From an uncultured bacterium (GTDB taxonomy: Bacteria; Bdellovibrionota_C; UBA2361; CAKMMH01), in contig CAKMMH010000024.1 in the NCBI GenBank assembly GCA_927798255.1, positions 1 through 14,745 on the forward strand: 14,745 nucleotides of DNA, written 5' to 3'. Positions 1 to 13,793 of this stretch are shown here, one piece after another (within the stretch, counting starts at the first letter, position 1; each line of letters starts with the position of its first letter). The translations under genes and the position numbers were made by a program. The notes under the pieces were generated by a model. That model made no database searches. It saw nothing but the letters and a program-made list of their open reading frames with translations, and had not been told where the DNA came from.

Positions 1-82
1 CTCATAATTATAAAAATCTAACTCAAAAAAACTTTAATTAATTCCGATATTTTTGGTAGTGAGTATATATTTAAAATTTTTT

Positions 83-95
83 GGAGCTAAAAGTG
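83..95 (+). promoter_or_regulatory. Ribosome binding site and GTG start that decide the pilB start
   Basis: GGAG at 83-86 is followed by a six-base spacer and GTG at 93-95. The upstream in-frame TTG at 81 overlaps this site and has no purine-rich element at a useful distance, so GTG 93 is the better start. Confidence 0.65.
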
Positions 96-1787
96 TCATC
101 ACGAATTGGTGATTTATTATTACAAAATGGATTAATTACGCAGAAAGACTTAGATGATTGGTTAAGTACAAACTCTAGTTCTCCTAGCTTTATTGGTGCA
201 CACTTTGTTGAATCTGGACTAGTTTCTGAAAAAAGATATTTAGATATTTTAAGTTCTCAATTTGAAACAGAAATTATTAATTTAGATAATGTAACTTTTG
301 ACGATGAAATATTAAATCTCATTCCTTATTCTGTATATAAAAAATATGGCGTGCTTCCTGTTGAAAAAACTGCAGGTAAAATAACTGTCGCAATGATTGA
401 TCCAACAAACATCGCAGCACTTAATGATATAAAATTCATAACAGGACTTGAAGTAGATGTTAAGCTTGCATCTCCTATAAAAATGCAAGCTATGCAAGAA
501 AAATTATTTGAAAAGAAAGTTTCTTATGAAAGTATTATTGATGATTTAGAAGAACAAAATATCGAATACATTAAAGATGATGAAAATATAAACATCTCTG
601 AACTCGAAAGACAAACAGAAGATGCACCTGTAGTAAAATTAGTAAACGCTGTTTTAACTGATGCAATCAAAAAAGGAGCATCAGATATTCATATTGAACC
701 TTACGAAAAAGCATTTAGAGTTCGTTTTAGAATTGATGGGGTGTTATATGAAATAATGAAACTTCCATTAAATTTAAAGAATGCTATCACTTCGAGAATA
801 AAAATTATGGCAAATCTTGATATCGCTGAACGAAGACTTCCGCAAGATGGCAGAATAAAATTAAAGCTTCATGATAGTAAAGAAATGGATTTCCGTGTAA
901 ACGTTATTCCTACGCTTTTTGGTGAGAAAGTTTGTTTAAGACTTCTAGACTCAAATAATTTACAGCTTGACATGACAAAACTTGGGTTCACCGAAACTCA
1001 GCTTAGTGATTTTAAAGAAGCAATAATGAAACCATTTGGAATGATTTTAGTTACAGGTCCTACTGGGTCTGGAAAAACAACGACGCTTTATTCGGCATTA
1101 TCTGAATTAAATCAAATAGGTTCTAATATAAGCACAGCAGAAGATCCAGTTGAGTTTAATCTTATGGGAATAAATCAATGCCAAATGAATGATGACATAG
1201 GGTTTAATTTTGCAAGTGCTTTAAGAGCATTTTTAAGACAAGACCCAGATATAATAATGGTTGGTGAGATAAGAGATTTTGAAACTGCACAAATTGCAAT
1301 TAAAGCTTCCCTTACAGGTCACCTTGTGCTTTCTACACTTCATACAAATGATGCCCCATCGACAATTAATAGATTAATTGATATGGGAATTGAACCTTTT
1401 TTAGTTGCTTCTTCGACAAATTTAGTGTTAGCTCAGCGTCTTGCAAGAAGAATTTGTCCTTATTGTAAAGTTGATGACACAGAAGTTACAAAAGATTTAC
1501 TTATTCACGCAGGAGTAAGTGAAGATGAGGTAGCAAATTTTTCATGCAAACGAGGAATAGGTTGTGAAGAGTGCTCAGGAACTGGTTATAAAGGACGTAT
1601 TGCTCTTTATGAAGTTATGCCAATAAGAGAACAAGTTTCTGAATTAATTTTAAAAGGAGCAAATAGCTCAGAAATAAAAAAGATGGCAAAATCTCTAGGT
1701 ATGATGACTTTAAGAGATAGCGCACTTTTAAGATTAAAAGAAGGGCTAACATCATATGAAGAAGTTGTAAGAGTAACTACATTATAG
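93..1787 (+). CDS. pilB: Type IVa pilus assembly ATPase PilB (GspE/PilB family)
   Basis: Hexameric cytoplasmic ATPase that drives pilus extension through the PilC platform. In numbering from the upstream TTG at 81, an MshEN/T2SSE_N domain covers about 6-145, followed by an N2 domain (about 180-290, containing ASDIHIEP) and the ATPase core. Walker A is GPTGSGKT at 326-333, the Walker B region IIMVGEIRD has Glu396, and a His-box region GHLVLSTLHT follows. A zinc tetracysteine is formed by C459, C462, C495 and C498. Length is normal for PilB. The ORF opens at TTG 81, but GGAG at 83-86 lies inside that extension, six bases before a GTG at 93. I therefore place the start at 93, giving 564 aa beginning (V)SSRIGDLL. 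It is followed by pilC after 55 bases. The family call is very secure; PilB is preferred over GspE or MshE mainly because of general similarity and the adjacent pilC. Confidence 0.95.
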   Translation: MSSRIGDLLLQNGLITQKDLDDWLSTNSSSPSFIGAHFVESGLVSEKRYLDILSSQFETEIINLDNVTFDDEILNLIPYSVYKKYGVLPVEKTAGKITVAMIDPTNIAALNDIKFITGLEVDVKLASPIKMQAMQEKLFEKKVSYESIIDDLEEQNIEYIKDDENINISELERQTEDAPVVKLVNAVLTDAIKKGASDIHIEPYEKAFRVRFRIDGVLYEIMKLPLNLKNAITSRIKIMANLDIAERRLPQDGRIKLKLHDSKEMDFRVNVIPTLFGEKVCLRLLDSNNLQLDMTKLGFTETQLSDFKEAIMKPFGMILVTGPTGSGKTTTLYSALSELNQIGSNISTAEDPVEFNLMGINQCQMNDDIGFNFASALRAFLRQDPDIIMVGEIRDFETAQIAIKASLTGHLVLSTLHTNDAPSTINRLIDMGIEPFLVASSTNLVLAQRLARRICPYCKVDDTEVTKDLLIHAGVSEDEVANFSCKRGIGCEECSGTGYKGRIALYEVMPIREQVSELILKGANSSEIKKMAKSLGMMTLRDSALLRLKEGLTSYEEVVRVTTL

Positions 1788-1842
1788 GAAGTATTAAAAC
1801 TGTAATGTATGGTTTTATAGAAATTTTTAAGGATTAAAATTT

Positions 1843-3063
1843 ATGCCTATTTTTTTGTGGGAAGGAAAAGATTCAAGAGGACAGACTATTTCAGGTGAAC
1901 TTGAAGCAACAGATAAAATTGCCGTATTTAATTTATTAAAAGCAAGGAAAATTACCGCAAACACTAATAAAATAAGAGAAAAGGGCGCCGGAATGAATAA
2001 AGAAATTAAAATCCCTTTTCTTGGAGCTAAAATTAAGCAAAAAGATATTTCAATTTTTACTCGTCAATTTTCAACAATGATTGATGCGGGGCTTCCTCTT
2101 GTTCAAGGCTTAAGTATTCTTTCAAAGCAGAATCCCAATCCTAAAATGAAAGCGATGCTTGAATCTATTAAAGAAGAAGTAGAGTCTGGAAAAACTCTTA
2201 CTGAAAGTTTAAAAAATTTTCCAAAACATTTTGACACATTATATGTAAACATGGTAGATGCTGGTGAAAATGGTGGTATCTTAGACATCATTTTAGATAG
2301 ACTTTCTGTCTATATGGAAAAATCTATAAAATTAAAAAGAGAAATCAAAACTGCACTAATTTATCCATCTGTTGTAATAAGTGCTGCAATTCTTGTCACA
2401 ACGATTTTACTTGTATTTGTAATTCCGACATTTGCAGAATTATTTGAAGATTTCGGAGCAGAACTTCCACTTCCTACACAAATTGTAATTAATATTTCAA
2501 ATTTTTTTGTTAAATATTTTTTTGTAATATCTGGAAGTTTTTTTACATCGCTTATAATATTTTTCAAATTTTCAAAGACCGATAAAGGAAAGTCTGTCTT
2601 ACATCCTATATACTTAAAACTTCCTATTTTTGGTGATTTAATTAGAAAAGTTGCTGTTGCAAGATTCACAAGAACTCTTGGTACGATGCTTTCTTCTGGT
2701 GTACCAATCTTAACGGCATTAAATATTTGTTCAAAAACTGCAGGAAATAAAGTAGTTGAAGTTACTGTTCAAAAAACACGTGTTGCAATTTCAGAAGGAA
2801 AACAAATGGCAGATACCTTAAGTGAATCCAATGTTTTTCCTCCAATGGTAACACAAATGATAGGCGTCGGAGAAACAAGTGGTGCGCTTGATAAAATGCT
2901 CGAGAAAGTTGCTATATTTTATGAAGAAGAAGTTGATAATGCAGTTGGCGCGTTAAAGCAATTAATTGAGCCACTTATGATTTTATTTTTAGGTGTCATT
3001 ATTGGTGGGCTTGTTATTGCGATGTATTTACCGATATTTAAGCTTGGTGCCGTTACCGGCTAA
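1843..3063 (+). CDS. pilC: Type IVa pilus inner-membrane platform protein PilC
   Basis: Polytopic inner-membrane protein on which the PilB ATPase acts to insert pilin subunits. The 406 residues match the usual PilC length. There are two T2SSF domains (about 70-193 and 273-395), each opening with a similar motif (FTRQFSTMIDAGLPL and FTRTLGTMLSSGVPI). Membrane segments lie at about 171-196, 221-241 and 376-396. The N-terminal FLWEGKDSRGQTISGELEA and the C-terminal YLPIFKLGAVTG are typical of PilC. The ATG is preceded by AAGGA at 1829-1833 with a nine-base spacer. It lies 55 bases after pilB with no terminator between, so the two are probably co-transcribed. No pilT gene is visible here. The gene ends inside the left arm of the palindrome at 3061-3190. 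Confidence 0.95.
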   Translation: MPIFLWEGKDSRGQTISGELEATDKIAVFNLLKARKITANTNKIREKGAGMNKEIKIPFLGAKIKQKDISIFTRQFSTMIDAGLPLVQGLSILSKQNPNPKMKAMLESIKEEVESGKTLTESLKNFPKHFDTLYVNMVDAGENGGILDIILDRLSVYMEKSIKLKREIKTALIYPSVVISAAILVTTILLVFVIPTFAELFEDFGAELPLPTQIVINISNFFVKYFFVISGSFFTSLIIFFKFSKTDKGKSVLHPIYLKLPIFGDLIRKVAVARFTRTLGTMLSSGVPILTALNICSKTAGNKVVEVTVQKTRVAISEGKQMADTLSESNVFPPMVTQMIGVGETSGALDKMLEKVAIFYEEEVDNAVGALKQLIEPLMILFLGVIIGGLVIAMYLPIFKLGAVTG

Positions 3064-3206: not shown

Positions 3207-5096
3207 TTATTTTAATATTTCATTAACATTTAACGGCTTTTGTAAAACTTCTTTAATGCCTAATTTTTTATATTCGTTAATATCAATATCTGATTTTCCA
3301 GTACAAAGAATTACTTCTGTTTTTATTTTTTTATCATTTAAAAATTTTAATAAATCATCGACTCTTTTTGTGCCTATATAATAATCAGAAATTATCAAAT
3401 CTGTTTTATTTGATAATAAGAAATCCGACGCATTTTGAATATTATCAAATCCCTGTACCAAAAATCCTTGAAGCTCTAATAATCTTTTTGTGCTATTTAA
3501 CAAATCGACATCATCTTCTATTAAAACAATCTTATTTGTCTTTTTCTTTGCCTTAGAAGATTTTTGATTCTCATCTTTAAAAATAGGAATTGTTAATGTA
3601 AAGATAGAGCCTTTATTAACCTCTGACTCAACATCAACCATTATATCATTAAGCTCAGAAAATATTTTTACCATAAAGAGTCCTAAGCCATACCCCTCTA
3701 AGTGCTCCGCGTTATCTCCTCTTTTAAACGAAGAAAATATTTCATTTAAATTTTCTTTACTAATTCCAATCCCTGTATCTGAAACTTTTATAACAGCTTT
3801 ATTTCTAACGATATTACAAGATAACTCTACTCGTCCTTTTTGAGTATACTTTATTGCATTTGAAATTAAATTATTTATTATTTTTCTAAATTGCCTTTTA
3901 TCTACAAGGATTGAAGAATTCTTAGAGTTATCTATTAAATTTAATCCTAAATTTTTTTGCGCTGCTCTTAAACTATAATTGTTTATAAGTGTTGTTAATT
4001 CATTTTCTAAATATACTTTCTCTTTATAAACTTTTAATTCACTATTTTTATACTTAGAAAAATCAAGTAAATCATCAAGTAAAAGAGAAATAGAATCACA
4101 ATTATTTAAAGCAATTTCTATAAATTCTTTTTTATTATTCGCGTCTTGATTTATTTCAAGAAGTTTTAATACTGAAACAAGATTAGAAAGGGGAGATTTT
4201 AAATCATGAGAAACAAACTCTAAATACTCACTCTTTTTGATTGCTTCATTTGTCTTTTTTTCAATTTCCTTTTTAGCACTCTGCAATTTTAAAAAAGTAT
4301 CGTATTTTGCACCTATTTCATAAGATAAGCCATCTAAAAAATTTTCTTCTTTACCATTTGCAAAATCTAAATTCGAATCCCCAAACCATAAATAAATTAA
4401 ATCGTTACAATTATCATTTTCAACCAAATTAATTTTTTTAATTATTGCTTTCTTATAACCAAATAAAGATAAATCCTCTAATACATTTTCAACATTATAA
4501 TAATAAACTACTCCTTCTTTTATCTCTTTTTTATTAGTAATTTTATTTAAAAATAATTGCTTTATAAACATTGATACATGTTTATTTGAAGAAAGAGAAC
4601 TTACGGCAAATGAATCAAAAGTATTAGGATTATAGTAAAAAAGAACAATAGCATTTTTTTGATAAAATCCAGAAAGGATATTTAAAATACTTCTAAAAAA
4701 CTCTTCCTTACTCCTATCTGGGTCAACATCTAGCTTTTTTAAAAAATTTATTGGATTTTTAAATTCATCTTTATTATATTTATCATTATCTTTTTTTAAT
4801 GATAAAATTTTTCTTTCCAAAAAAGTAAAATATTCATTTAAAGCGTTTCCAAGTGGAGTACAAAAACTAATATTATCCTTTTTTCTAGTATAATTATTAA
4901 ACGTTGTCACAAAGTTTTTAAAATTATTGCAAAAATTACTAACATCATATAGGCATAGCATACTGATTGCTAAAATTGGATACACAAGACAAACAGTCCA
5001 AAGCAATTCATCGTTATCAGATTTAAAAAATGCTATTATTGTTATTATTATCACAATTACAATAAGTAAAATTTTTACATTTCTTAAAAACTTCAT
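3207..5096 (-). CDS. Hybrid sensor histidine kinase with C-terminal receiver domain
   Basis: Membrane-bound two-component kinase of 629 aa. Two membrane segments lie near the N-terminus (about 7-23 and 32-50) with almost no periplasmic part. An unrecognised sensor region follows (about 110-275, perhaps GAF-like), then a coiled-coil linker (270-290). The HisKA domain has His297 in FVSHDLKSPL. The HATPase domain has N-box Asn413 (NLISNAIKYT), G1 DTGIGI at 440-445 and G2 GYGLGLF at 468-474. The receiver (about 522-629) has the acidic pair Asp528/Asp529, phospho-acceptor Asp571 (IISDYYIG), Thr599 and Lys620-Pro621. All catalytic residues are present, so it should autophosphorylate and relay to its own receiver. 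No HPt or DNA-binding partner is in the window. It is last in the Tad operon, 26 bases after the 366-aa gene, so it is probably co-transcribed. The signal sensed is unknown. Confidence 0.93.
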   Translation of the reverse strand: MKFLRNVKILLIVIVIIITIIAFFKSDNDELLWTVCLVYPILAISMLCLYDVSNFCNNFKNFVTTFNNYTRKKDNISFCTPLGNALNEYFTFLERKILSLKKDNDKYNKDEFKNPINFLKKLDVDPDRSKEEFFRSILNILSGFYQKNAIVLFYYNPNTFDSFAVSSLSSNKHVSMFIKQLFLNKITNKKEIKEGVVYYYNVENVLEDLSLFGYKKAIIKKINLVENDNCNDLIYLWFGDSNLDFANGKEENFLDGLSYEIGAKYDTFLKLQSAKKEIEKKTNEAIKKSEYLEFVSHDLKSPLSNLVSVLKLLEINQDANNKKEFIEIALNNCDSISLLLDDLLDFSKYKNSELKVYKEKVYLENELTTLINNYSLRAAQKNLGLNLIDNSKNSSILVDKRQFRKIINNLISNAIKYTQKGRVELSCNIVRNKAVIKVSDTGIGISKENLNEIFSSFKRGDNAEHLEGYGLGLFMVKIFSELNDIMVDVESEVNKGSIFTLTIPIFKDENQKSSKAKKKTNKIVLIEDDVDLLNSTKRLLELQGFLVQGFDNIQNASDFLLSNKTDLIISDYYIGTKRVDDLLKFLNDKKIKTEVILCTGKSDIDINEYKKLGIKEVLQKPLNVNEILK

Positions 5097-5122: not shown

Positions 5123-6223
5123 TTATTTATATAAATTTTTAACAACATCACATAAGTATTCACACGTAAAATTATTATCAATATAATAATCAACGCCCAT
5201 TAAATATGCTTCAACTTCTTTTATACCATCAAAATCAATTAAGATATTTTTTGATTTTGATTTATGCGACCTAAATAATTTATGTTCCTTCTTAAGAGCA
5301 TCTGTCGATAAACAAATTACTACTAATTTAAATTTATAATTTTTGTAATCATTATATAAATCGAATAAATTTGAATAATTTTTTGTATTAAATTGTATAC
5401 TTTTTAAATAATTATTAATTTTTTCAGACATTTGCTCGTCGCTTGTAACAACTGCAATATTATTTTGCATTGCTAGGATTTTTTTAGGTATAGACCATTT
5501 TAAAATTATTGTACCTTTTTCATTTATTACATTTAACTTTCTACTTTTAAAAAATTTATCTTTATTAAATCCTACAATAAAATTAGAAGATAACTTATTC
5601 CAAAACTCATTAATATCTTGATTTATAATTTGACCTCGTTTCCAATTATCATCGATATCTTTTATGTTATAAAAAACCTTATTTTCAAATTTTTCAAAAA
5701 TTATATTAGATATTCCTTTTTCTTCTATTTCAATTATTAAAGCTTTTATTGTTTCAAAAAAAGCATCTTCGTTATCATTTGTTACATCATTTTCAACCAA
5801 TGAATCCAAAAAAGTACTTAAATCACCACCAGTTGTTAAAAATATTTTAACATTTGAGGGAATATTAAATTTAGTGTTTATTAAAAAAGGGTTTGATGTA
5901 ATTAAAATTTTTAACTTCTGTTCTTTTATTATTGGGCAAAAACCATATTTTTTTAATACATCTAAATTTTTAATGCTTTTAATGATGCTCCCCTTATCAA
6001 GATTATCAAAATTTTCTATATACTCTATGCCACAATAAGTTTTAATTTTTTCAAAAACATCTTTTTTGGGAATATTTAAATAATTTATAAAGAAATCTAA
6101 ATAATATCTTTTGTCAATTTTATCATTAAATAAATTATCATTAACTAAATTAGGATATAAAGTATCTATTAATTCCTTTAATGAGTGAATATTATGTTTT
6201 GTTAAAGTTAAAAAATCTTTCAT
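5123..6223 (-). CDS. Unrecognised protein: degenerate PilB/GspE N-terminal region plus pseudo-receiver
   Basis: 366 aa, no signal peptide or membrane segment, very rich in Asn, Lys and Ile. Residues about 41-140 resemble the MshEN/T2SSE_N domain of PilB: KKYGFCPIIKEQKLKILITS (91-110) parallels KKYGVLPVEK...KITVAMID in the PilB of this window. Residues 152-190 (ISNIIFEKFENKVFYNI) resemble the PilB N2 segment ASDIHIEPYEKAFRVRF. There is no Walker A, Walker B or His box, so it cannot be an ATPase. Residues about 254-366 look like a CheY fold (IAVVTSDEQ, KLVVICLS, NILIDFDG) in which Thr260/Ser261 replace the acidic pair and no Asp sits at the phospho-acceptor site. The ATG shares its A with the tadE stop (TAATG) and has no Shine-Dalgarno, so translation should be coupled to tadE. 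The domain reading is inferred by eye; a regulator or scaffold of the pilus machine is plausible, but no function is proven. Confidence 0.85.
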   Translation of the reverse strand: MKDFLTLTKHNIHSLKELIDTLYPNLVNDNLFNDKIDKRYYLDFFINYLNIPKKDVFEKIKTYCGIEYIENFDNLDKGSIIKSIKNLDVLKKYGFCPIIKEQKLKILITSNPFLINTKFNIPSNVKIFLTTGGDLSTFLDSLVENDVTNDNEDAFFETIKALIIEIEEKGISNIIFEKFENKVFYNIKDIDDNWKRGQIINQDINEFWNKLSSNFIVGFNKDKFFKSRKLNVINEKGTIILKWSIPKKILAMQNNIAVVTSDEQMSEKINNYLKSIQFNTKNYSNLFDLYNDYKNYKFKLVVICLSTDALKKEHKLFRSHKSKSKNILIDFDGIKEVEAYLMGVDYYIDNNFTCEYLCDVVKNLYK

Positions 6224-6753
6224 TATGATAAATTTTCAAATTCGTAAGTTACTAATAATTTTTTTGTAATATTTATTTTTCTTGGCATAACCTTTAAAAA
6301 GTCATAACCATAGCGTCTATTTTTTAAAAAATCTATTTTTCCATTAATGACAACAAAATACTTTTTATCTAAGTCATAATTAACATGAATATTTTCTTGA
6401 TTTCTGTTGTTTTCTATTTGCAGAGTCCCTTTATATGTTGCCTCTAATCCATTATAATTATTTTTTAAGTTATTAATTTTTTGACGAATTACATCATTAA
6501 TATCATCTAAATTTTTCACTTTAAAATTATTATCTAACTTTATTGCAAATTCTTTTCTATTTCCAAATTCATTATTAATTCTTTCTTCAAGCGTATAACT
6601 AATCCTATAGTAATCCATGATTCCCATAATTTCAAAAATAAATGGAAATAAGAAAACTAAAGCTACCATTGATTCTAAAAATGCAAGCCCTAATTCATTA
6701 TGTTTAATATTTTGAAATTTATTTTGTTTTTGTTTCATTCTTATTATCTCCAT
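6223..6753 (-). CDS. tadE: TadE-like minor pseudopilin
   Basis: Small pilin-like protein of the Tad secretion system. Residues 18-45 carry the TadE signature: HNELG, then LAFLESMVALVFLFPF, then EIMGIMDY. This includes a clean class IV prepilin site, G22^LAFLE with Glu27 at mature position +5, so a Tad-type peptidase should cleave it. The mature hydrophobic helix is followed by a poorly conserved Asn/Lys-rich domain, and 176 aa is a usual TadE length. The ATG at 6753 overlaps the tadG end by 10 bases and has GAGGGG about five bases upstream. An alternative ATG at 6738, just after the tadG stop and nine bases after GGAG, would drop five residues. TadF is a possible alternative name; the family call is secure. 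Confidence 0.82.
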   Translation of the reverse strand: MEIIRMKQKQNKFQNIKHNELGLAFLESMVALVFLFPFIFEIMGIMDYYRISYTLEERINNEFGNRKEFAIKLDNNFKVKNLDDINDVIRQKINNLKNNYNGLEATYKGTLQIENNRNQENIHVNYDLDKKYFVVINGKIDFLKNRRYGYDFLKVMPRKINITKKLLVTYEFENLS

Positions 6754-8099
6754 ATAGACCCCTCTTTTTTATTTAACCAGAGTAATCTAAAAAGATAATC
6801 TTTAAGTTCTTCTTCTGATTCTTTACTTATAACTAATATTTTTATATGTGATGTATTTAAATTATTATGAAAAATATCTTTTTTTGTCGAATGAGTATTT
6901 TTTAATAGAACAAAAATTACATTTATATTTAAATTAACATTTTTAGCTATACTTTCAAATTTATTAACTTCGGCTTGCAAATCACCTTCTTTGTCATAAA
7001 GATTAGAAGTAAAAATAATTAAATTCTTTCTTAAACTAGTAGTATCGGAAAACCTATCTTTTCTATTTTGAGCTGCCATTAAAGTTTTCATTGAGTAATC
7101 AAAAACATTTAAAAAATCTGCATTATTAACGTGAACAGGTATAGACCAAACGGAAGTTTTTATACTTGAATATAAATCATCAGATATAACATCACTGCTA
7201 ATATCGTGTATGTCATAATTATTTAAATTTTTAGGAATAGAATACTTATCAATTTCATTACCTATAATTGATGCGTTATAGCAAGAAGTGCTTGAAAAAC
7301 CATCATCATCTGTGTAGGAAAAAAATTTTGCTTCTTTGTTATCAAAATTTGCCTTTGCAATATCTTTTAAAGTTTCAAAATCTCTTGAATAATTTCCTCC
7401 AGGATATGTTGCAACACCAATAGAATTTAATTTAACACTTCCCAAAAAATAATACGTTTCTAAAAGAAGGTTCTTGAGCGGTAAAAAAACTTCATTAAAA
7501 CATTGCTGAGTATAATACCTAGGATTACCAAATTCTTCTTCATTTTGATTAAAATAAATAGCTGCCGGCCACTGTCCTTCACTTCCCCATAAATTATTTA
7601 CATCTCTTGGGGCATTATAGGAATTTCTATCAAGTAATAATAAGTAATCACTAACACTAGGAGATGCAAAAGAATATGCTGAAACAGGATAATATATAGC
7701 AGGAATATTAAGCTTATTATTTTTTTGTGAAATATAATTAAATACATTTGAGAATACCATTGCATGATCTCTATGATATTTAACTTCAATCCCAGTATCA
7801 TTAACATTTACAGTATAATAATTACTATCAACACCATGCTTATTTAAGTAATCAATAGTAGCGACCTTTGCTTGATCTTTATATGGGAATACTTTTACTC
7901 CTTGCAAAGTTGCTTCATCTAATATATGTTGAATTCCTCTTCTTTTAGTATAAATTGATGCGACATCAAAAGTTATAGCTAATAGAAACGATAATATAGG
8001 AAATACAAAAAGCGCGTAAAATATTATATTATAACCTTTTTGGTTATTTAAATGTTTTTTTATTATGTTCAAAAAATTTTTACCTAAGCTTATACTCAT
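6744..8099 (-). CDS. tadG: TadG-like Tad pilus envelope protein with degenerate vWA-like domain
   Basis: TadG is an envelope protein of Tad systems with an N-terminal TadE-like helix and usually a vWA domain. Here NNQKGYNIIFYALFVFPILS begins the hydrophobic helix, then FDVASIYTKRRGIQHILDEA matches the TadG pattern of small residues after the helix. A vWA-like domain begins at DYLLLLDRNSYN, where the MIDAS motif DxSxS is reduced to D-R-N-S-Y, so metal binding is doubtful. A central Tyr/Asn/Ser-rich region follows. The longest frame begins at a GTG (8129) inside tadC. I prefer the ATG at 8099, four bases after the tadC stop, which gives 451 aa and a normal leader; neither start has a good Shine-Dalgarno. 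It overlaps tadE by 10 bases. The assignment rests on the N-terminus, order and size. Confidence 0.75.
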   Translation of the reverse strand: MSISLGKNFLNIIKKHLNNQKGYNIIFYALFVFPILSFLLAITFDVASIYTKRRGIQHILDEATLQGVKVFPYKDQAKVATIDYLNKHGVDSNYYTVNVNDTGIEVKYHRDHAMVFSNVFNYISQKNNKLNIPAIYYPVSAYSFASPSVSDYLLLLDRNSYNAPRDVNNLWGSEGQWPAAIYFNQNEEEFGNPRYYTQQCFNEVFLPLKNLLLETYYFLGSVKLNSIGVATYPGGNYSRDFETLKDIAKANFDNKEAKFFSYTDDDGFSSTSCYNASIIGNEIDKYSIPKNLNNYDIHDISSDVISDDLYSSIKTSVWSIPVHVNNADFLNVFDYSMKTLMAAQNRKDRFSDTTSLRKNLIIFTSNLYDKEGDLQAEVNKFESIAKNVNLNINVIFVLLKNTHSTKKDIFHNNLNTSHIKILVISKESEEELKDYLFRLLWLNKKEGSIWR

Positions 8100-8103
8100 C
8101 AAA

Positions 8104-8937
8104 TTAAGGTTCCATAGTTGTTTGTACACTAGTATTTCTATGCGTATTAATATTCATAATTTGAACTAATGGCACTGACATAAAAAATATTATAAGCCCT
8201 ACAAATGCACATAAAAGTGGAAGTGTCGCCTTAACTGGCATAACCGCTATTTCTTTTTCAACAATTTGTTGATAATACTCTTGCGTAGAGTCACTTAGCT
8301 CTTCCATTGGTGAAATAATTTCTCCTCCTTCTCTTTGAGCTATCCCTAAATGTAAAAATGCATGTCTTATAGATGTTAAATTAATACTACTTGCTACAAG
8401 ACTTAAACTATCCTCAAAACTTATCCCCGACTTATTTTTCTTTAACACAACATCAAGTAATTTGGTAACAGGATCGATTTTATCTACATTTTTTTTACCT
8501 AAATTTACAACTACACTAACGGCTGCATAAACATCATTCCCTCCTTGAACAGCCATAACTAATCGTTCCATTACAATTGGTAAATAAAAATCATATTTTT
8601 TAAAAGCTTGTTTTTTTTCTCTGTTTGCCAAAATTCTAACAAAAATATAAGCACCAGCAATTGAGAAAACTGAACAAAAAATAATATTGGTGCTAGATAA
8701 ATCTAAAAACAGCAATGATAATAATAAAAGTAACGCTGTTATAAATGGAAACATAAATTTTTGTTCTAGACTCAATGTAATTTTTTTATCATCATCTTGC
8801 TCTTTTTTTTCCTCATCTCTTAAATCGTTTTCACTAATTAAATGATATGCATCTAGCGCATCTTGAGAGGTAAGACTAAATTTAATATATAATAACGCTA
8901 GTATTATAAATAATGTTAATAATATGTAAGTAATCAT
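8104..8937 (-). CDS. tadC: Tad pilus inner-membrane platform protein TadC
   Basis: T2SSF-family membrane protein that pairs with TadB to form the Tad assembly platform. From the ATG at 8937 it has 277 aa: a first membrane segment at about 3-20, an acidic linker (DEEKKEQDDD), segments at about 62-79 and 83-102, a cytoplasmic T2SSF-like domain (about 115-235, with HLGIAQREGGEI...ALRxA-like helices) and a final segment at about 238-260. A longer frame reaches 8967, but ATG 8937 makes an ATGA overlap with the tadB stop and has GAGGG (8945-8949) seven bases upstream, so it is the better start. Its position between tadB and tadG is the canonical order. Confidence in the family is high. Confidence 0.9.
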   Translation of the reverse strand: MITYILLTLFIILALLYIKFSLTSQDALDAYHLISENDLRDEEKKEQDDDKKITLSLEQKFMFPFITALLLLLSLLFLDLSSTNIIFCSVFSIAGAYIFVRILANREKKQAFKKYDFYLPIVMERLVMAVQGGNDVYAAVSVVVNLGKKNVDKIDPVTKLLDVVLKKNKSGISFEDSLSLVASSINLTSIRHAFLHLGIAQREGGEIISPMEELSDSTQEYYQQIVEKEIAVMPVKATLPLLCAFVGLIIFFMSVPLVQIMNINTHRNTSVQTTMEP

Positions 8938-9767
8938 ATTTTTTCCCTCGTCATATATAACATCCATATAATACCAACAGCAACAAAAACGACTCCTAAA
9001 AGCATAAGTCTAACACCAATTGGTGAAGCTATAGCTTGAAAAAGTTGCTCTCTATTCATAGCCATTTGCACAAGTGCAATAAAAATCACACTTCCTAAAA
9101 TTCCAAATGCTGAAACTTTTTGCATTGCTACTGCTGCTTTTGCTTTTCTCCTAAAACCTTGCCTTTGACGAGTAACTTTTGTTAAACGTCTTAATGGTTT
9201 ATATAAACCACTCCCTTCCTTTCTTGATAAGATAAATGCTACTCTAAACAAATCAATATCTGGGTGTTTTATATCTCTTGCAAAATTATTTATAGCCTCT
9301 TCTTCCGACATACCTTCTTGAATATTAGAAAGGACTTCTAATAACTTTTGTTTTAATATACTAGAATCTAAAAATAAATCCTTAACTAATTCAAGTGCTT
9401 GAAGTGGATCTTTTCCACTTTTTATACATGAGGCTAATGAAATTAAAAAAGCTGGGTAATCTTCCTCAAAATTTTGACATCTTTTTATAATTTTTTTATT
9501 TACTAATGAATATTCTATAAAAACATACACAAGTACAGCTACAAATGGGACATAAAATTTAAAAAATAAAATTGTTATCGTTAAAATTAATGTTAAAAGA
9601 ATATAAAATCTAACAAAAAGTTTATGTTTATCTTCTGATTTATAACCGGCATAAAAGAAAATATCATCAATAACATTACCAATTTCTTTTGATGTCTGCT
9701 TATTGATACCAAAAATTCCCGTACTTAACAGTCGTAATCTTTTGAGTTCACTATTAAATCTTTTCAT
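8934..9767 (-). CDS. tadB: Tad pilus inner-membrane platform protein TadB
   Basis: T2SSF-family platform protein, partner of TadC. The 277 residues show membrane segments at about 51-70 and 72-89, then a T2SSF domain (about 100-215) with the family pattern YPAFLISLASCIKSGKDPLQ, EGMSEEEAINNFA and LSRKEGSGLYKPL. A basic stretch, TKVTRQRQGFRRKAKA, precedes the last two segments (about 218-236 and 252-272). Basic residues after the T2SSF core are usual in TadB. It starts 24 bases after tadA; the Shine-Dalgarno is weak (AAAAGAA at long spacing). The TGA stop overlaps the tadC ATG, so the pair is translationally coupled, as expected for proteins that assemble together. Confidence 0.92.
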   Translation of the reverse strand: MKRFNSELKRLRLLSTGIFGINKQTSKEIGNVIDDIFFYAGYKSEDKHKLFVRFYILLTLILTITILFFKFYVPFVAVLVYVFIEYSLVNKKIIKRCQNFEEDYPAFLISLASCIKSGKDPLQALELVKDLFLDSSILKQKLLEVLSNIQEGMSEEEAINNFARDIKHPDIDLFRVAFILSRKEGSGLYKPLRRLTKVTRQRQGFRRKAKAAVAMQKVSAFGILGSVIFIALVQMAMNREQLFQAIASPIGVRLMLLGVVFVAVGIIWMLYMTREKI

Positions 9768-9791: not shown

Positions 9792-11114
9792 TTAATCTAC
9801 TGTTAATTCATTTTTTAAAGTTCTAAGAGAAAGATTTAGTTTTTTCTTTTTGAAATCTTCTTCAAAACTACTCACATTACTTAACACTTGCCATGTAGGT
9901 TTATTTTTATAAACATACTTAAAAATTTCTCTCTGTTGAATCACATCATCAGACATAGAGGTAATTTCTCTTACATCCATAATTCTTCTTGCACCAGAAT
10001 TATGACAAATATCAATATGAACTATTATTTGCACAGCACTTGCTATTTGTTCTTTTAATATATTATTCGCAACCATTTTTTGCGCACGACCTAAAAAAAG
10101 CTCAAGTCTTGATATAGCGTCAGAAGCAGATTTTGCATGAATCGTACTCATACCAGGGTGACCAGAAGCACAAACATCTATAAATGCTTCAGCAGCTCTT
10201 GCATCACGAATCTCACCAAAAATAATTCTATTCATAGCCATACGCATACCAGCACGGATACATTCAGCAGGAGAAATAAGCCCTGCGTTATCAGCATTTG
10301 CTTCTCTTACACGAAGATATCTAACATGCGGGTGTTCAAGATCAATTTCCGGAGTGTCTTCTATAACAAGAATTGATTCTTCTTTAAAAATACAAGCGGC
10401 AAGTGCCCTAATAAGTGTAGTTTTTCCTGTACCAACTTCACCTGCTACAAAAATGGTAAGTCCTGATTTTACAGCCACACTTAAATAATCAAAAATTTCT
10501 TTTGGGGCTAATTCATATCTAATAAGATTATCTATTTTTACTTTTGAGAATCTATTTATTCTTAAAGTTAAATATGGACCTTTTTCACATATTGTTTGAT
10601 GCACTGCATGTACTCTCACAAGTCCACCAATCATTCCATCGGTAATTGGATGAGCTGTTGAATAAGTTGTCCCCGCTTTTTGAAGTAATCTTTCAACGTA
10701 ATTTATGTAACTTTCTTTGTTGGGAAATGTAATATCAGTTTTATAATTTTTTCTTTTTTGTTGAACGCAAACATCATCGAAATCTGTAACGATGATATCA
10801 CTAATTTCAGGAGAATCTATTAATGTTTGTAAAATTCCAAAAGGTTTTTGTTCTTTTTCTAGTTGTTCTAAAATTTCATCTCTTTCAAATGAAGAAAGCT
10901 CAAAACCATGACGAATAGAAATTGTATCAATTAAGTCACAAGAGTCATTTTGTTTATATTCTTCTTGATCTTTTGAATAATCTTTACCTATTTCTATTCT
11001 AATTTCTTTAATAATATATGATAATGCAGAAGATAAACCACTTTTTACTACAACTGGCTCTTTTACAATTTCATCATCAAATTCTTGTTTTATACTTCTC
11101 CAATCACGTTCCAA
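9792..11114 (-). CDS. tadA: Tad pilus assembly ATPase TadA/CpaF
   Basis: Cytoplasmic secretion ATPase that drives Flp pilus assembly (and in some species retraction). The 440 aa show a variable acidic N-terminus, an N-terminal domain (about 85-195) and a RecA-like core. Walker A is AGEVGTGKTT with Lys231, the Asp box is IEDTPEI (251-257), the Walker B region is NRIIFGEIRD with Glu301, and the His box is ASGHPGMSTIHA with His319 and His326. SGHPGMSTIHA and the length distinguish CpaF/TadA from PilB (568 aa in the longest frame here). The start is TTG at 11114: GGGAG lies six bases upstream and there is no in-frame ATG before residue 161, so TTG is well supported. It lies 22 bases after cpaB and 24 before tadB. 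Confidence 0.95.
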   Translation of the reverse strand: MERDWRSIKQEFDDEIVKEPVVVKSGLSSALSYIIKEIRIEIGKDYSKDQEEYKQNDSCDLIDTISIRHGFELSSFERDEILEQLEKEQKPFGILQTLIDSPEISDIIVTDFDDVCVQQKRKNYKTDITFPNKESYINYVERLLQKAGTTYSTAHPITDGMIGGLVRVHAVHQTICEKGPYLTLRINRFSKVKIDNLIRYELAPKEIFDYLSVAVKSGLTIFVAGEVGTGKTTLIRALAACIFKEESILVIEDTPEIDLEHPHVRYLRVREANADNAGLISPAECIRAGMRMAMNRIIFGEIRDARAAEAFIDVCASGHPGMSTIHAKSASDAISRLELFLGRAQKMVANNILKEQIASAVQIIVHIDICHNSGARRIMDVREITSMSDDVIQQREIFKYVYKNKPTWQVLSNVSSFEEDFKKKKLNLSLRTLKNELTVD

Positions 11115-11125
11115 TTATATCTCCC
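11112..11125 (-). promoter_or_regulatory. Ribosome binding site supporting the TTG start of tadA
   Basis: On the minus strand GGGAG (complement of 11121-11125) is six bases before TTG (complement of 11112-11114). An ATG a few bases further upstream is followed at once by TAG and cannot be the start. Confidence 0.75.
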
Positions 11126-11136
11126 TACATTTTAAA

Positions 11137-12018
11137 TTATTGAACTTTAAATCCTTGAGGTACCGAATTAGACTTTATCCACTTATCGCCAGATAGTGCA
11201 AAAATTTTATCCTTCTTTCCTTTTTCACCTTTTATAGAAACAATTGCTTTTATACTTTCTTTTTTATCACCTATTGGACGTCCTTTTAAATTTTCAGGAC
11301 TAAACATATTTTCTTCCCAGTTTGCTTCATCATTTGCACTTCTTAACGCAAAGGCAATTCTTCCAAGAGGAATAGCAGTGTTAATTGCAAGACATTGTTT
11401 TTGAGTAACTAGTAATGTTACAGTGCTTGGAATATTTGGTGATTTTTCAGAAGCAACAGGAGCAGTAGAACGTTCTTGAGATAAAATTTTAACTTTTTCT
11501 GCTATTACTGATGTTTTATGCTTTTGAACTAAAAGTACATCTACTAAACTTCCAGAACCTGCCCAGCCTTCAACGGCAGATGTCGCGTCAACTCTTATTG
11601 TCATTGCACGCATACCTTGAGGAATTTTATCAACAACTGGGTTTTGGGGATAAGCTGTGAAACTAAAGTTTACATCAAATACTGGAATATTTGCTGGAAG
11701 TTTAGTAAGAGCTATTGCTTCTTGCATACCACTTAAATCTGTTAATGCACCTTGTGGAATCTGATGTTTAGGAAATGAAACATATTTAAATTTAATATCT
11801 TTTACTTTTGTTCCCATTGGAACAAGTTTAGCAGGAACTGGAATCTTTACCGTATCAAACTCAGCAACAACAGAAACCTTCTCTTCTTTTTGTGGAGTAT
11901 TTGAACTTGAAATTATAATAGAGGAAATTATTATTGATAGACAAATCATTATAAGTGCTATCATTTGATTTTTCTTTTTATTTCTTTGATTTATATAGGA
12001 ATTCCTTCTTTGTACCAT
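11137..12018 (-). CDS. cpaB: Flp pilus assembly protein CpaB/RcpC
   Basis: Periplasmic SAF-domain protein associated with the Tad secretin channel. The 293 aa begin with a basic N-terminus and a membrane anchor (about 19-38), then a low-complexity linker. An SAF domain follows (about 50-115: VKIPVPAKLVPMGTKVKD, then FPKHQIPQGALTDL), and then the RcpC/CpaB region (about 132-165), where IPQGMRAMTIRVDATSAVEG and GSLVDVLLV are very typical. The ATG has AGAGG upstream at about 11 bases. It follows flp after a 137-bp gap that holds a terminator, so expression probably depends on read-through. In many Tad loci the secretin gene cpaC comes next; here tadA follows directly. Confidence 0.93.
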   Translation of the reverse strand: MVQRRNSYINQRNKKKNQMIALIMICLSIIISSIIISSSNTPQKEEKVSVVAEFDTVKIPVPAKLVPMGTKVKDIKFKYVSFPKHQIPQGALTDLSGMQEAIALTKLPANIPVFDVNFSFTAYPQNPVVDKIPQGMRAMTIRVDATSAVEGWAGSGSLVDVLLVQKHKTSVIAEKVKILSQERSTAPVASEKSPNIPSTVTLLVTQKQCLAINTAIPLGRIAFALRSANDEANWEENMFSPENLKGRPIGDKKESIKAIVSIKGEKGKKDKIFALSGDKWIKSNSVPQGFKVQ

Positions 12019-12155: not shown

Positions 12156-12347
12156 TTATTCATCCATACTAGGTAAGCTTGGCATTTCAGCTGCTCTATC
12201 TTGAGCCCAAGTACCAATCTCAGCACCAGCTGACTTAATGTTATTTCCTAACATTTTAAAGAAAGCAAATGTCATAACAGCTACTACTGCAGCACCTGCA
12301 CAATACTCAAGTAAAGTTAATCCCTTTTGGTTTCGTCTTTTTAACAT
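12156..12347 (-). CDS. flp: Flp-type major pilin of the Tad pilus
   Basis: Precursor of the major Tad pilus subunit. The 63 aa have a short basic leader (MLKRRNQKG), cleavage after Gly9, and the mature start LTLLEYCAGAAVVAV, matching the Flp motif G^xxxxEY with Glu14 and Tyr15. The hydrophobic helix runs to about residue 33 and is followed by a short polar tail ending in PSLPSMDE. Length and motif are typical of Flp pilins. The ATG has a strong AAGGAG five bases upstream, the best ribosome binding site in the window, fitting a highly made protein. It is second in the operon, 27 bases after cpaE, and is followed by a terminator. The Cys at mature position 7 is less usual in this helix. Confidence 0.95.
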   Translation of the reverse strand: MLKRRNQKGLTLLEYCAGAAVVAVMTFAFFKMLGNNIKSAGAEIGTWAQDRAAEMPSLPSMDE

Positions 12348-12374: not shown

Positions 12375-13793
12375 CTAAACTACTTTAGTAAAATATTTTT
12401 TACTATCCTCATTTTTCTTTAAATTTGTTTCATCGTTTTTAGCACTTGCATTATAATCAATAACTTTACTTGGTTGTTCAATTTTATCAGGTTGTTTATT
12501 TTCAATTTCTTTTTTAGTTTTATTTTTTATTATACTACTATAAGTAGTAAATAATTTTTTGATATATGAAGCGATGCTAGCAACAAAATCTTTAAATATT
12601 TTAGCAAACTTATTACCTGAAATCACTATTTTGTTACCATCTAATTTTTCACTTAAAAAATACATTATTTCCTTTAAGTTATCATCAGATTGTGAATAAA
12701 AAGTTGCTCCAGAACCTGGCCATCTTCCCGCCATACTTGAATTTTTTAATGAGTAAGAAAAATAGGAGTCCTCTAGTAATAGTGAAGAAGTTAGGACCTC
12801 ATTTTTTAAAATATCAGATGATATTAGCGAAGAATCATGCTTATTTTCCAAAACAACTATCTTTGAGTTTGCTGAGATGAAATTTTTAGCATTCTTTATA
12901 AGCTCTAAATTTGCAAAAATTGATGCTGGGTCATTATTTATAACAACAAGTAAGATATCACATACTCTATAAAGGCTTGTTTTTAAAACACCTTTAAAGC
13001 AAGCTATATCAATTATTATATAATCAAAACAAGAATCTAAATTTTCGAGAACAGATAAAAAGTTTTTATAATAAGATGATTTTATAGAATAAATATTTTC
13101 TGCATCAATTGTTGGGGTCATACAGTAAAGCCCATCTTCATCTTCCCAAACATTATAATAACATTCTCTTAAAGTATCTTGTGTTATTGGCTTTAACCCT
13201 TCTAAAATTAATCCCAAATTTTCATTTATAAATGGACGAACTTGTAAAAACCTACTTAAATCCTGACTTTCTACATCACAATCAACAAGGAGGACCTTTT
13301 TATCCTTATCAAGATATATCTCCCCGAGAGCTGACACTATAGAGGTTACCCCAGAACCACCTTTTCCACTATCAACGATTATAATTTTAGAATTTGATTT
13401 TTTGTTAGTTTTTCTAACTAATATTATAAGTTTTCTAAAAAATTCATTAGCTGAAATATTATCTAAAAATATATCAGCAACCCCAAGTCTTGCCAAATCT
13501 TCTATTATAAAAAGCTTATTTAAACTTTCATTAATCCAAGCTACTATCACAATATCAGGGAATAAAGTCTTAACATCACTAACTATTCCCCTATCTTTTG
13601 AAAGAATCTCACTACCTAATAATATTAATTTAGGGGATTTTTGAAAACTTAACTCTTCAACAGAAATCGTTTTGACGCTAATACGAGGGAGTATATCGAC
13701 GCTTTGAGAACCTGTGTAAATAAAATCACACAGCCTATTACGAATCTTATTTCTAGATTCAGCAGTTTTATCTAAAATTAAAAGTTCTAACAT
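12375..13793 (-). CDS. cpaE: Tad pilus localisation ATPase-like protein CpaE/TadZ
   Basis: MinD/ParA-like protein that positions the Tad machine. The 472 aa comprise an N-terminal receiver-like domain (about 1-128) without a clear phospho-acceptor Asp (LILLGSEI), as is usual in CpaE. Then comes a MinD-like domain: the deviant Walker A GKGGSGVTS (143-151) keeps Lys144 but has Val149 where the P-loop Lys would be. Walker A' LLVDCDVESQDLS has Asp171 and Asp173, and the Walker B region FDYIIIDIACF has Asp262. Loss of the second Lys is common in CpaE/TadZ, so ATP hydrolysis may be weak or absent. The C-terminal tail (about 390-472) is an extension: a possible amphipathic segment (IFKDFVASIASYIKKLFTTY), then a charged Lys/Glu/Asn-rich end. 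The ATG is preceded by AAGGGA at about five bases. It is the first gene of the operon. Confidence 0.92.
   Translation of the reverse strand: MLELLILDKTAESRNKIRNRLCDFIYTGSQSVDILPRISVKTISVEELSFQKSPKLILLGSEILSKDRGIVSDVKTLFPDIVIVAWINESLNKLFIIEDLARLGVADIFLDNISANEFFRKLIILVRKTNKKSNSKIIIVDSGKGGSGVTSIVSALGEIYLDKDKKVLLVDCDVESQDLSRFLQVRPFINENLGLILEGLKPITQDTLRECYYNVWEDEDGLYCMTPTIDAENIYSIKSSYYKNFLSVLENLDSCFDYIIIDIACFKGVLKTSLYRVCDILLVVINNDPASIFANLELIKNAKNFISANSKIVVLENKHDSSLISSDILKNEVLTSSLLLEDSYFSYSLKNSSMAGRWPGSGATFYSQSDDNLKEIMYFLSEKLDGNKIVISGNKFAKIFKDFVASIASYIKKLFTTYSSIIKNKTKKEIENKQPDKIEQPSKVIDYNASAKNDETNLKKNEDSKKYFTKVV

Follow-up and report, generated by a model that had tools for sequence, protein, structure and literature searches.

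The locus

The window studied here, a stretch of 14,745 nucleotides from an uncultured bacterium of the Bdellovibrionota_C (contig CAKMMH010000024.1 of assembly GCA_927798255.1), carries a Tad pilus operon on its minus strand. One gene of this operon, hereafter the target, is the subject of the present analysis. A single open reading frame fits positions 5123-6223 exactly and encodes a protein of 366 amino acids. A preliminary description made from the letters alone had read it as the front half of a PilB/GspE motor ATPase, without its core, fused to a CheY-like pseudo-receiver. Here we show that the target is almost certainly the Tad-operon orthologue of a response-regulator family made up of N1 and N2 domains and a CheY-like receiver, with no ATPase core.

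Upstream (5') of the target, the operon runs in the order cpaE, flp, cpaB, tadA, tadB, tadC, a TadG-like gene and a TadE-like gene (Table 1). The target ATG shares one base with the stop of the TadE-like gene, and 26 bases separate the end of the target from the start of a histidine kinase gene. The genes pilB and pilC (81-3063) adjoin the operon and are convergent with it. The GC content is 20% for the target gene and 28% for the window, and ranges from 32% to 66% in the Tad loci fetched from relatives.

A family of Tad-operon response regulators

Direct searches with the target itself returned little. Pfam gave no family at its cut-off, the sole hit being an insignificant one to DUF3791 (0.035), and NCBIfam gave nothing at cut-off either, so that the similarity of the target had to be shown by other means. 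Among 5.8 billion proteins, three homologues were found at E <= 0.01: one representing a 99%-identical cluster (49 sequences from 19 contigs), the others having 64% and 53% identity, the last from a genome named Bdellovibrionota bacterium. This spread makes an assembly artefact unlikely. When a three-sequence target profile was compared with PDB sequences, it matched a response regulator at E 0.087. A single-protein search of the relatives matched only in the target's own genome (1 of 57), and a profile scan of genome contigs with the target alignment confirmed no relative.

Synteny is the key evidence for the identity of the target. The TadA of the window was searched in 57 genomes, its own included, and matched at E <= 1e-30 in 45 of them; twenty Tad loci from 20 genomes were then fetched and the genes around tadA read. 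In 19 of these loci a gene of 389-475 amino acids lies directly before a kinase gene, and all 19 orthologues contain the Pfam domain Response_reg (best E 9.3e-28). The twentieth locus (L044) has a 328-residue gene of the same family at that position, recognised later. The position of the target, after the TadG-TadE genes and directly before a histidine kinase, fits this family synteny.

Alignment supports the assignment. Sixteen of the 19 orthologues, each sharing 11-18% identity with the target, align lengthwise with all three target-lineage proteins, and an hhalign comparison of the three sequences with the 19 gave a probability of 97.3% (E 2.1e-11, 359 columns), with E 9.8e-11 for the front half alone and 0.0019 for the receiver alone. 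The corresponding scores were 87.1, 73.8 and 23.5, against 21.1, 16.5 and 15.3 for the best of 40 column-shuffled controls each. Against the full target, other operon families scored at most 17.7; only the kinase family came higher (23.7), its own receiver being similar to that of the target. The receiver test is a weak one, since the unrelated PilB front half scores 20.0 in it. A hidden Markov model (HMM) of orthologue front halves, built with the target left out, detected the target in its own genome at E 1.2e-9, and it also matched a PilB/GspE-type ATPase in genome G042 at 1.1e-4. Adding the orthologues raised the AlphaFold pLDDT of the target from 52.9, obtained with three sequences, to 81.6. 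The trees that we drew serve as illustration only and carry no support values. Searches for further members added few: the orthologue front-half alignment, with 8000 candidate proteins scored, found three proteins, two of them from loci already in the set, and among the best 80 loci of a second genome-contig profile scan eight matched over the front half and the others over the receiver only.

The resemblance of the front half to PilB was also borne out, chiefly through the orthologues. The target alone matches PilB residues 1-300 weakly (score 26.0, probability 5.7%), a score above the best of 40 column shuffles (19.6) and above every one of the seven other operon families (<= 17.9). The orthologue front half matches the PilB N-terminus with an hhalign E-value of 5e-7, and the orthologue profile matched the PilF and MshE chains of the PDB with marginal E-values. 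The target has no hit to Pfam MshEN (PF05157), to which three of 19 orthologues match at E <= 1 (the best, at 0.00015, judged by E-value only; L036 lies below the cut-off). The N2 domain fold of GspE/PilB motors is present in the target, and no comparison placed residues 41-250 in an unrelated fold. The order of domains first proposed holds, with better borders as given in Table 1. No T2SSE hit, and with it no catalytic core or Walker motif, was found in the target, which ends with its receiver. The output module of the family is a non-catalytic motor front half, N1-N2 or N2 alone, fused to a receiver. An origin from the N-terminal part of TadA itself was considered and is unsupported (hhalign probability 0.1 to the TadA family).

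N1 and N2 are non-catalytic in genuine motors, and the core is absent from the relatives too, so that calling the front half "dead", as was done at first, is misleading; the word suits the receiver, and that only in the target lineage. The reported loss of the c-di-GMP motif is, by the scan made, common to the entire family and not specific to the target. A relaxed 24-residue MshEN motif (RLGxx...) occurs in 0/34 family proteins by a scan that finds it in the PilB of the window and in only 6/32 PilB/GspE controls; having missed 26/32, the scan is insensitive. A c-di-GMP switch, at one time the leading idea, was dropped on this absence. A broader version, in which the module is controlled by some non-phosphate small ligand at the pseudo-receiver, or by a nucleotide that N1 still binds, seems very improbable to us on the same scan, even though part of one report allows that c-di-GMP binding may not require perfect conservation of the motif (PMC5013675).

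Table 1. Features of the Tad locus in the window
Feature	Position	Strand	Basis
Target gene; N1-N2-pseudo-receiver protein, 366 aa	5123..6223	minus	open frame, orthology
N1 (MshEN/GSPII-like) domain, residues about 11-145, without c-di-GMP motif	5789..6193	minus	orthologue hhalign, PDB profile hits, motif scan
N2 (GspE/PilB N2-like) domain, residues about 150-246	5486..5776	minus	
Pseudo-receiver domain, residues 253-366	5126..5467	minus	
alpha4-beta5 stretch, residues 334-350, within one of two patches most conserved among the three target-lineage homologues; Tyr347 at K-3 switch position	5174..5224	minus	
Hybrid histidine kinase: HisKA, HATPase_c, receiver with active-site residues intact	3207..5096	minus	Pfam; receiver alignment; partner by synteny
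TadE-like gene, directly upstream of target	6223..6753	minus	position; weak matches from open frames in L039, L040, L042 (E 0.001); no Pfam hit
TadG-like gene	6744..8129	minus	Pfam Tad domain below cut-off; relatives' loci
tadC	8104..8967	minus	T2SSF below cut-off; relatives' loci
tadB	8934..9767	minus	T2SSF; relatives' loci
tadA/cpaF motor ATPase	9792..11114	minus	T2SSE 3.5e-32
cpaB/rcpC	11137..12018	minus	RcpC 2.1e-14
flp pilin	12156..12347	minus	sequence; similar open frames in some relatives' loci
cpaE/tadZ-like ParA-type ATPase	12375..13793	minus	AAA_31 1.6e-11

Loss of the phosphorylation site

The C-terminus of the target has the CheY-like receiver fold. Pfam Response_reg (PF00072), which hits 19/19 orthologues, does not hit the target, and the best 50 rows of the structure search with the target are all receivers. 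The latter is no argument against the front half, because one domain fills the list. As first described, the domain has neither an acidic pair nor a phospho-acceptor: where a receiver would have its acidic pair, phospho-acceptor, Thr and Lys, the target has T260, S261, C304, D330 and N350. Shifting the alignment by one residue would bring the invariant D262 into the acidic pair, and even then the phospho-acceptor is absent. All 30 relatives keep the phosphorylation residues, while none of the three target-lineage proteins keeps any. On these residues the target receiver has very probably lost phosphorylation, and among the sequences compared it has done so in the target lineage only. A pseudo-receiver is defined, in a passage of a 2025 review, as a receiver-like domain that lacks key catalytic residues and is computationally identified as a receiver (PMC12632262). 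Judged by its sequence, the target answers to this definition in the residues it lacks; Pfam does not identify the domain as a receiver. Since those residues are gone, we file the target as a divergent variant of the N1-N2-receiver family of Tad loci.

Divergence and probable maintenance of the target

The divergence of the target was set against that of the rest of the operon by taking, for each gene, the mean identity of the window's copy to 8-11 orthologues and dividing it by the median of the others. Eight Tad-operon genes entered this comparison; the TadE-like gene stood outside it, the receiver part of the kinase has no median, and family f12, with 12 genomes of the order, was excluded so that no clade would bias the result. 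Of the eight, the target has diverged most: its ratio is 0.53, and that of its receiver 0.42, while the seven others range over 0.76-0.98. This places the change mostly in the target gene itself.

Such a ratio, together with a GC content below that of an AT-rich window, might be expected if the regulator had lost its function in a small AT-rich genome and its gene were on the way out. We regard this as highly unlikely, given that three species retain open frames (366, 370 and 367 amino acids) for homologues that are 53-64% identical to the window protein. Within the lineage N1, N2 and receiver are also similarly conserved (44%, 41% and 43% invariant positions), and two patches stand far above the rest. 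These two most conserved 17-residue patches fall within residues 28-51, where a DKR/DRR motif common to the orthologues lies, and within residues 332-352. In our own reading of these sequences, the function of the target shifted and was then stabilised, which would make it a maintained pseudo-receiver.

Distribution and the kinase partner

By the front-half HMM, 30 of the 45 genomes searched in the class carry the family (the phylum sample consists of the same 45), namely 25/28 of the order and 5/17 outside it, all 17 of which have a TadA match. At 29 of 31 family places, the window included, tadA lies on the same contig, 1.6-4.4 kb off. Of the two others, L202 has its family gene behind TadG- and TadE-like genes, which in turn come immediately after the end of a tadC, and L203 shows no Tad gene on its contig. 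In six loci (L054, L044 and L197-L200) the family gene directly follows tadC with no tadG or tadE between, which ties the regulator less to the genes for minor pilins than to the tadABC core. One genome has a second Tad locus (L195), whose family member (10434-11354, 306 amino acids) has N2 and an apparently intact receiver and no N1.

Leaving the window aside, the next gene is a histidine kinase in 26 of the 28 fetched loci where the next gene is visible; in L196 and L199 it is a partial open frame (234 and 192 amino acids) without kinase similarity, the contigs of both L198 and L200 stop at the family gene, and that of L205 stops before it. Ten of the relatives' kinases were scanned and contain HATPase_c (10/10), HisKA (8/10) and a receiver (9/10); the kinase beside the family gene is usually a hybrid one. 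The link to the adjacent kinase that had been suspected is thus well supported by synteny, as a kinase-regulator pair and not as the scaffold then suggested. In a kinase-side role in the target lineage, the pseudo-receiver could be a brake or scaffold: it would attach to the neighbouring hybrid kinase without taking up phosphate, and tether it or tune it, the kinase's own receiver carrying the signal. Adjacency is kept in the window, the window kinase's receiver retains E, D, D, T and K, and part of the 2025 review discusses an action of pseudo-receivers on partner kinases as a possibility (PMC12632262). This explanation leaves the conservation of N1-N2, equal to that of the receiver, unexplained, and the relatives combine a receiver on the kinase with an intact regulator (30/30), so that it is probably not the ancestral role; overall we consider it unlikely.

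Another proposal, that with its PilB-like front half the protein links the type IVa pilus (through PilB, PilC or PilM) to the Tad system as an adaptor or decoy, draws on the homology of that half to PilB/GspE and not to TadA, and on the neighbouring pilB and pilC. The distribution of PilB speaks against it. In 14 of the 15 other genomes of the order PilB is found at 56-65% identity (the fifteenth, G009, has a 53% fragment), while in f12 the best matches reach 43-51% or are missing. None of these 12 genomes, which are incomplete drafts, has a close PilB orthologue, and 10 of them keep the target-family gene, so that a tie to the type IVa motor is unlikely to be conserved. No pilB or pilC open frames beyond weak matches were seen in the 20 fetched Tad loci as listed. 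As a different partner might serve, it should be added that another PilB/GspE-type ATPase (E <= 1e-60) occurs in 11/12 genomes of f12. All in all we judge the adaptor idea quite unlikely; as a conserved role it is unsupported, a verdict that does not extend to the target lineage alone.

A proposed role at the Tad machine

The best overall explanation, to which we give a probability of about 0.55, is that the family controls the Tad machine after translation, in the target lineage independently of phosphorylation. In the relatives, the adjacent kinase would phosphorylate the receiver, and phosphorylation would decide whether N1-N2 docks on the Tad machine from the cytoplasmic side, most probably at the TadA motor or the TadB/TadC platform. 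Pilus activity could in this way be adjusted without new transcription. The receiver of the target lineage would be unable to take phosphate, and its protein would work without phosphorylation, regulated through how much of it is present and through protein contacts at the alpha4-beta5 face that it has kept, as has been shown for the FrzS pseudo-receiver.

Docking of the N1-N2 module is itself a step for which the odds may fall somewhat short of even, and it is drawn by analogy with motors of the PilB class, where, according to part of one account, N2 lies against the C-terminal domain of a different subunit and N1-stator contacts are inferred from type II secretion homologues (PMC11656802). 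More tentatively, it can be imagined that the Tad pili of the order have a two-component system of their own to run them, in which a stolen motor front half, docking via N2, acts as a phosphorylation-gated clutch, one lineage having become phosphorylation-independent.

Relation to known systems

The target resembles GspE/PilB/MshE-type ATPases (4pht, 4ksr and PilF, with N1, N2 and a C-terminal domain) in N1, N2 and their order, and differs from them in having a receiver in place of the catalytic C-terminal domain and no c-di-GMP motif. It shares its syntenic place, its N1-N2-receiver build and its kinase neighbour with the ordinary regulators of the family in relatives (L035-L043, L045-L054), and has lost the receiver active site that is intact in 30/30 of theirs. 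FrzS of Myxococcus xanthus is not known to carry N1-N2 or to be the product of a Tad gene. According to part of the published account, FrzS is like the target in a receiver without phospho-Asp, a Tyr at the switch position and a link to pilus-driven motility (PMC1974792). An MshEN domain joined to a receiver, and a c-di-GMP-binding MshEN response regulator of Bdellovibrio, are already on record in part of an earlier report; the protein in question, Bd2402 of Bdellovibrio bacteriovorus, combines an MshEN-type domain with a two-component function as the target does (PMC5013675). From Bd2402 the target is set apart, by description only, through its lost N1 motif, the presence of N2 and its place in a Tad operon.

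Our full-text literature searches, which were of partial coverage and judged by titles and the starts of abstracts, turned up no description of a Tad-operon regulator of N1-N2-receiver build. The switching of Tad pili once they are assembled is poorly understood. If the proposed role is true, a kinase-regulator pair with a motor N1-N2 part in the Tad operon would offer a direct and testable line of post-translational control, and the target would be a natural experiment in which a receiver turned into a pseudo-receiver inside one operon. Pseudo-receivers, the activation of which is by mechanisms that a passage of the 2025 review calls a mystery (PMC12632262), can here be compared before and after the change, in 30 intact relatives and the three proteins of the target lineage. 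The target is also an example of an apparent orphan gene, with only three homologues in a direct protein search, that could be placed via synteny.

Sixteen of the 19 orthologues (L035-L054) end in Ala-Ala, an end the target does not have. Such a tail resembles a CtrA-like protease tag and could serve for recognition by a protease, or it could be a by-product: at this point the DNA often looks like a ribosome-binding site from which the kinase gene, which overlaps here, would be translated, and for this reason we make no claim on it.

In Tad systems, CpaE/TadZ has an atypical N-terminal receiver joined to a ParA-type ATPase. It is like the target in being a pilus-assembly protein with a receiver-like domain, and a Burkholderia putative pilus assembly-related protein (4dad) was hit 19 of our structure search. 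In the window, a separate cpaE lies at the end of the operon away from the target, and its product, read by eye only, begins with what appears to be a degenerate receiver, so that this Tad operon may hold two pseudo-receivers.
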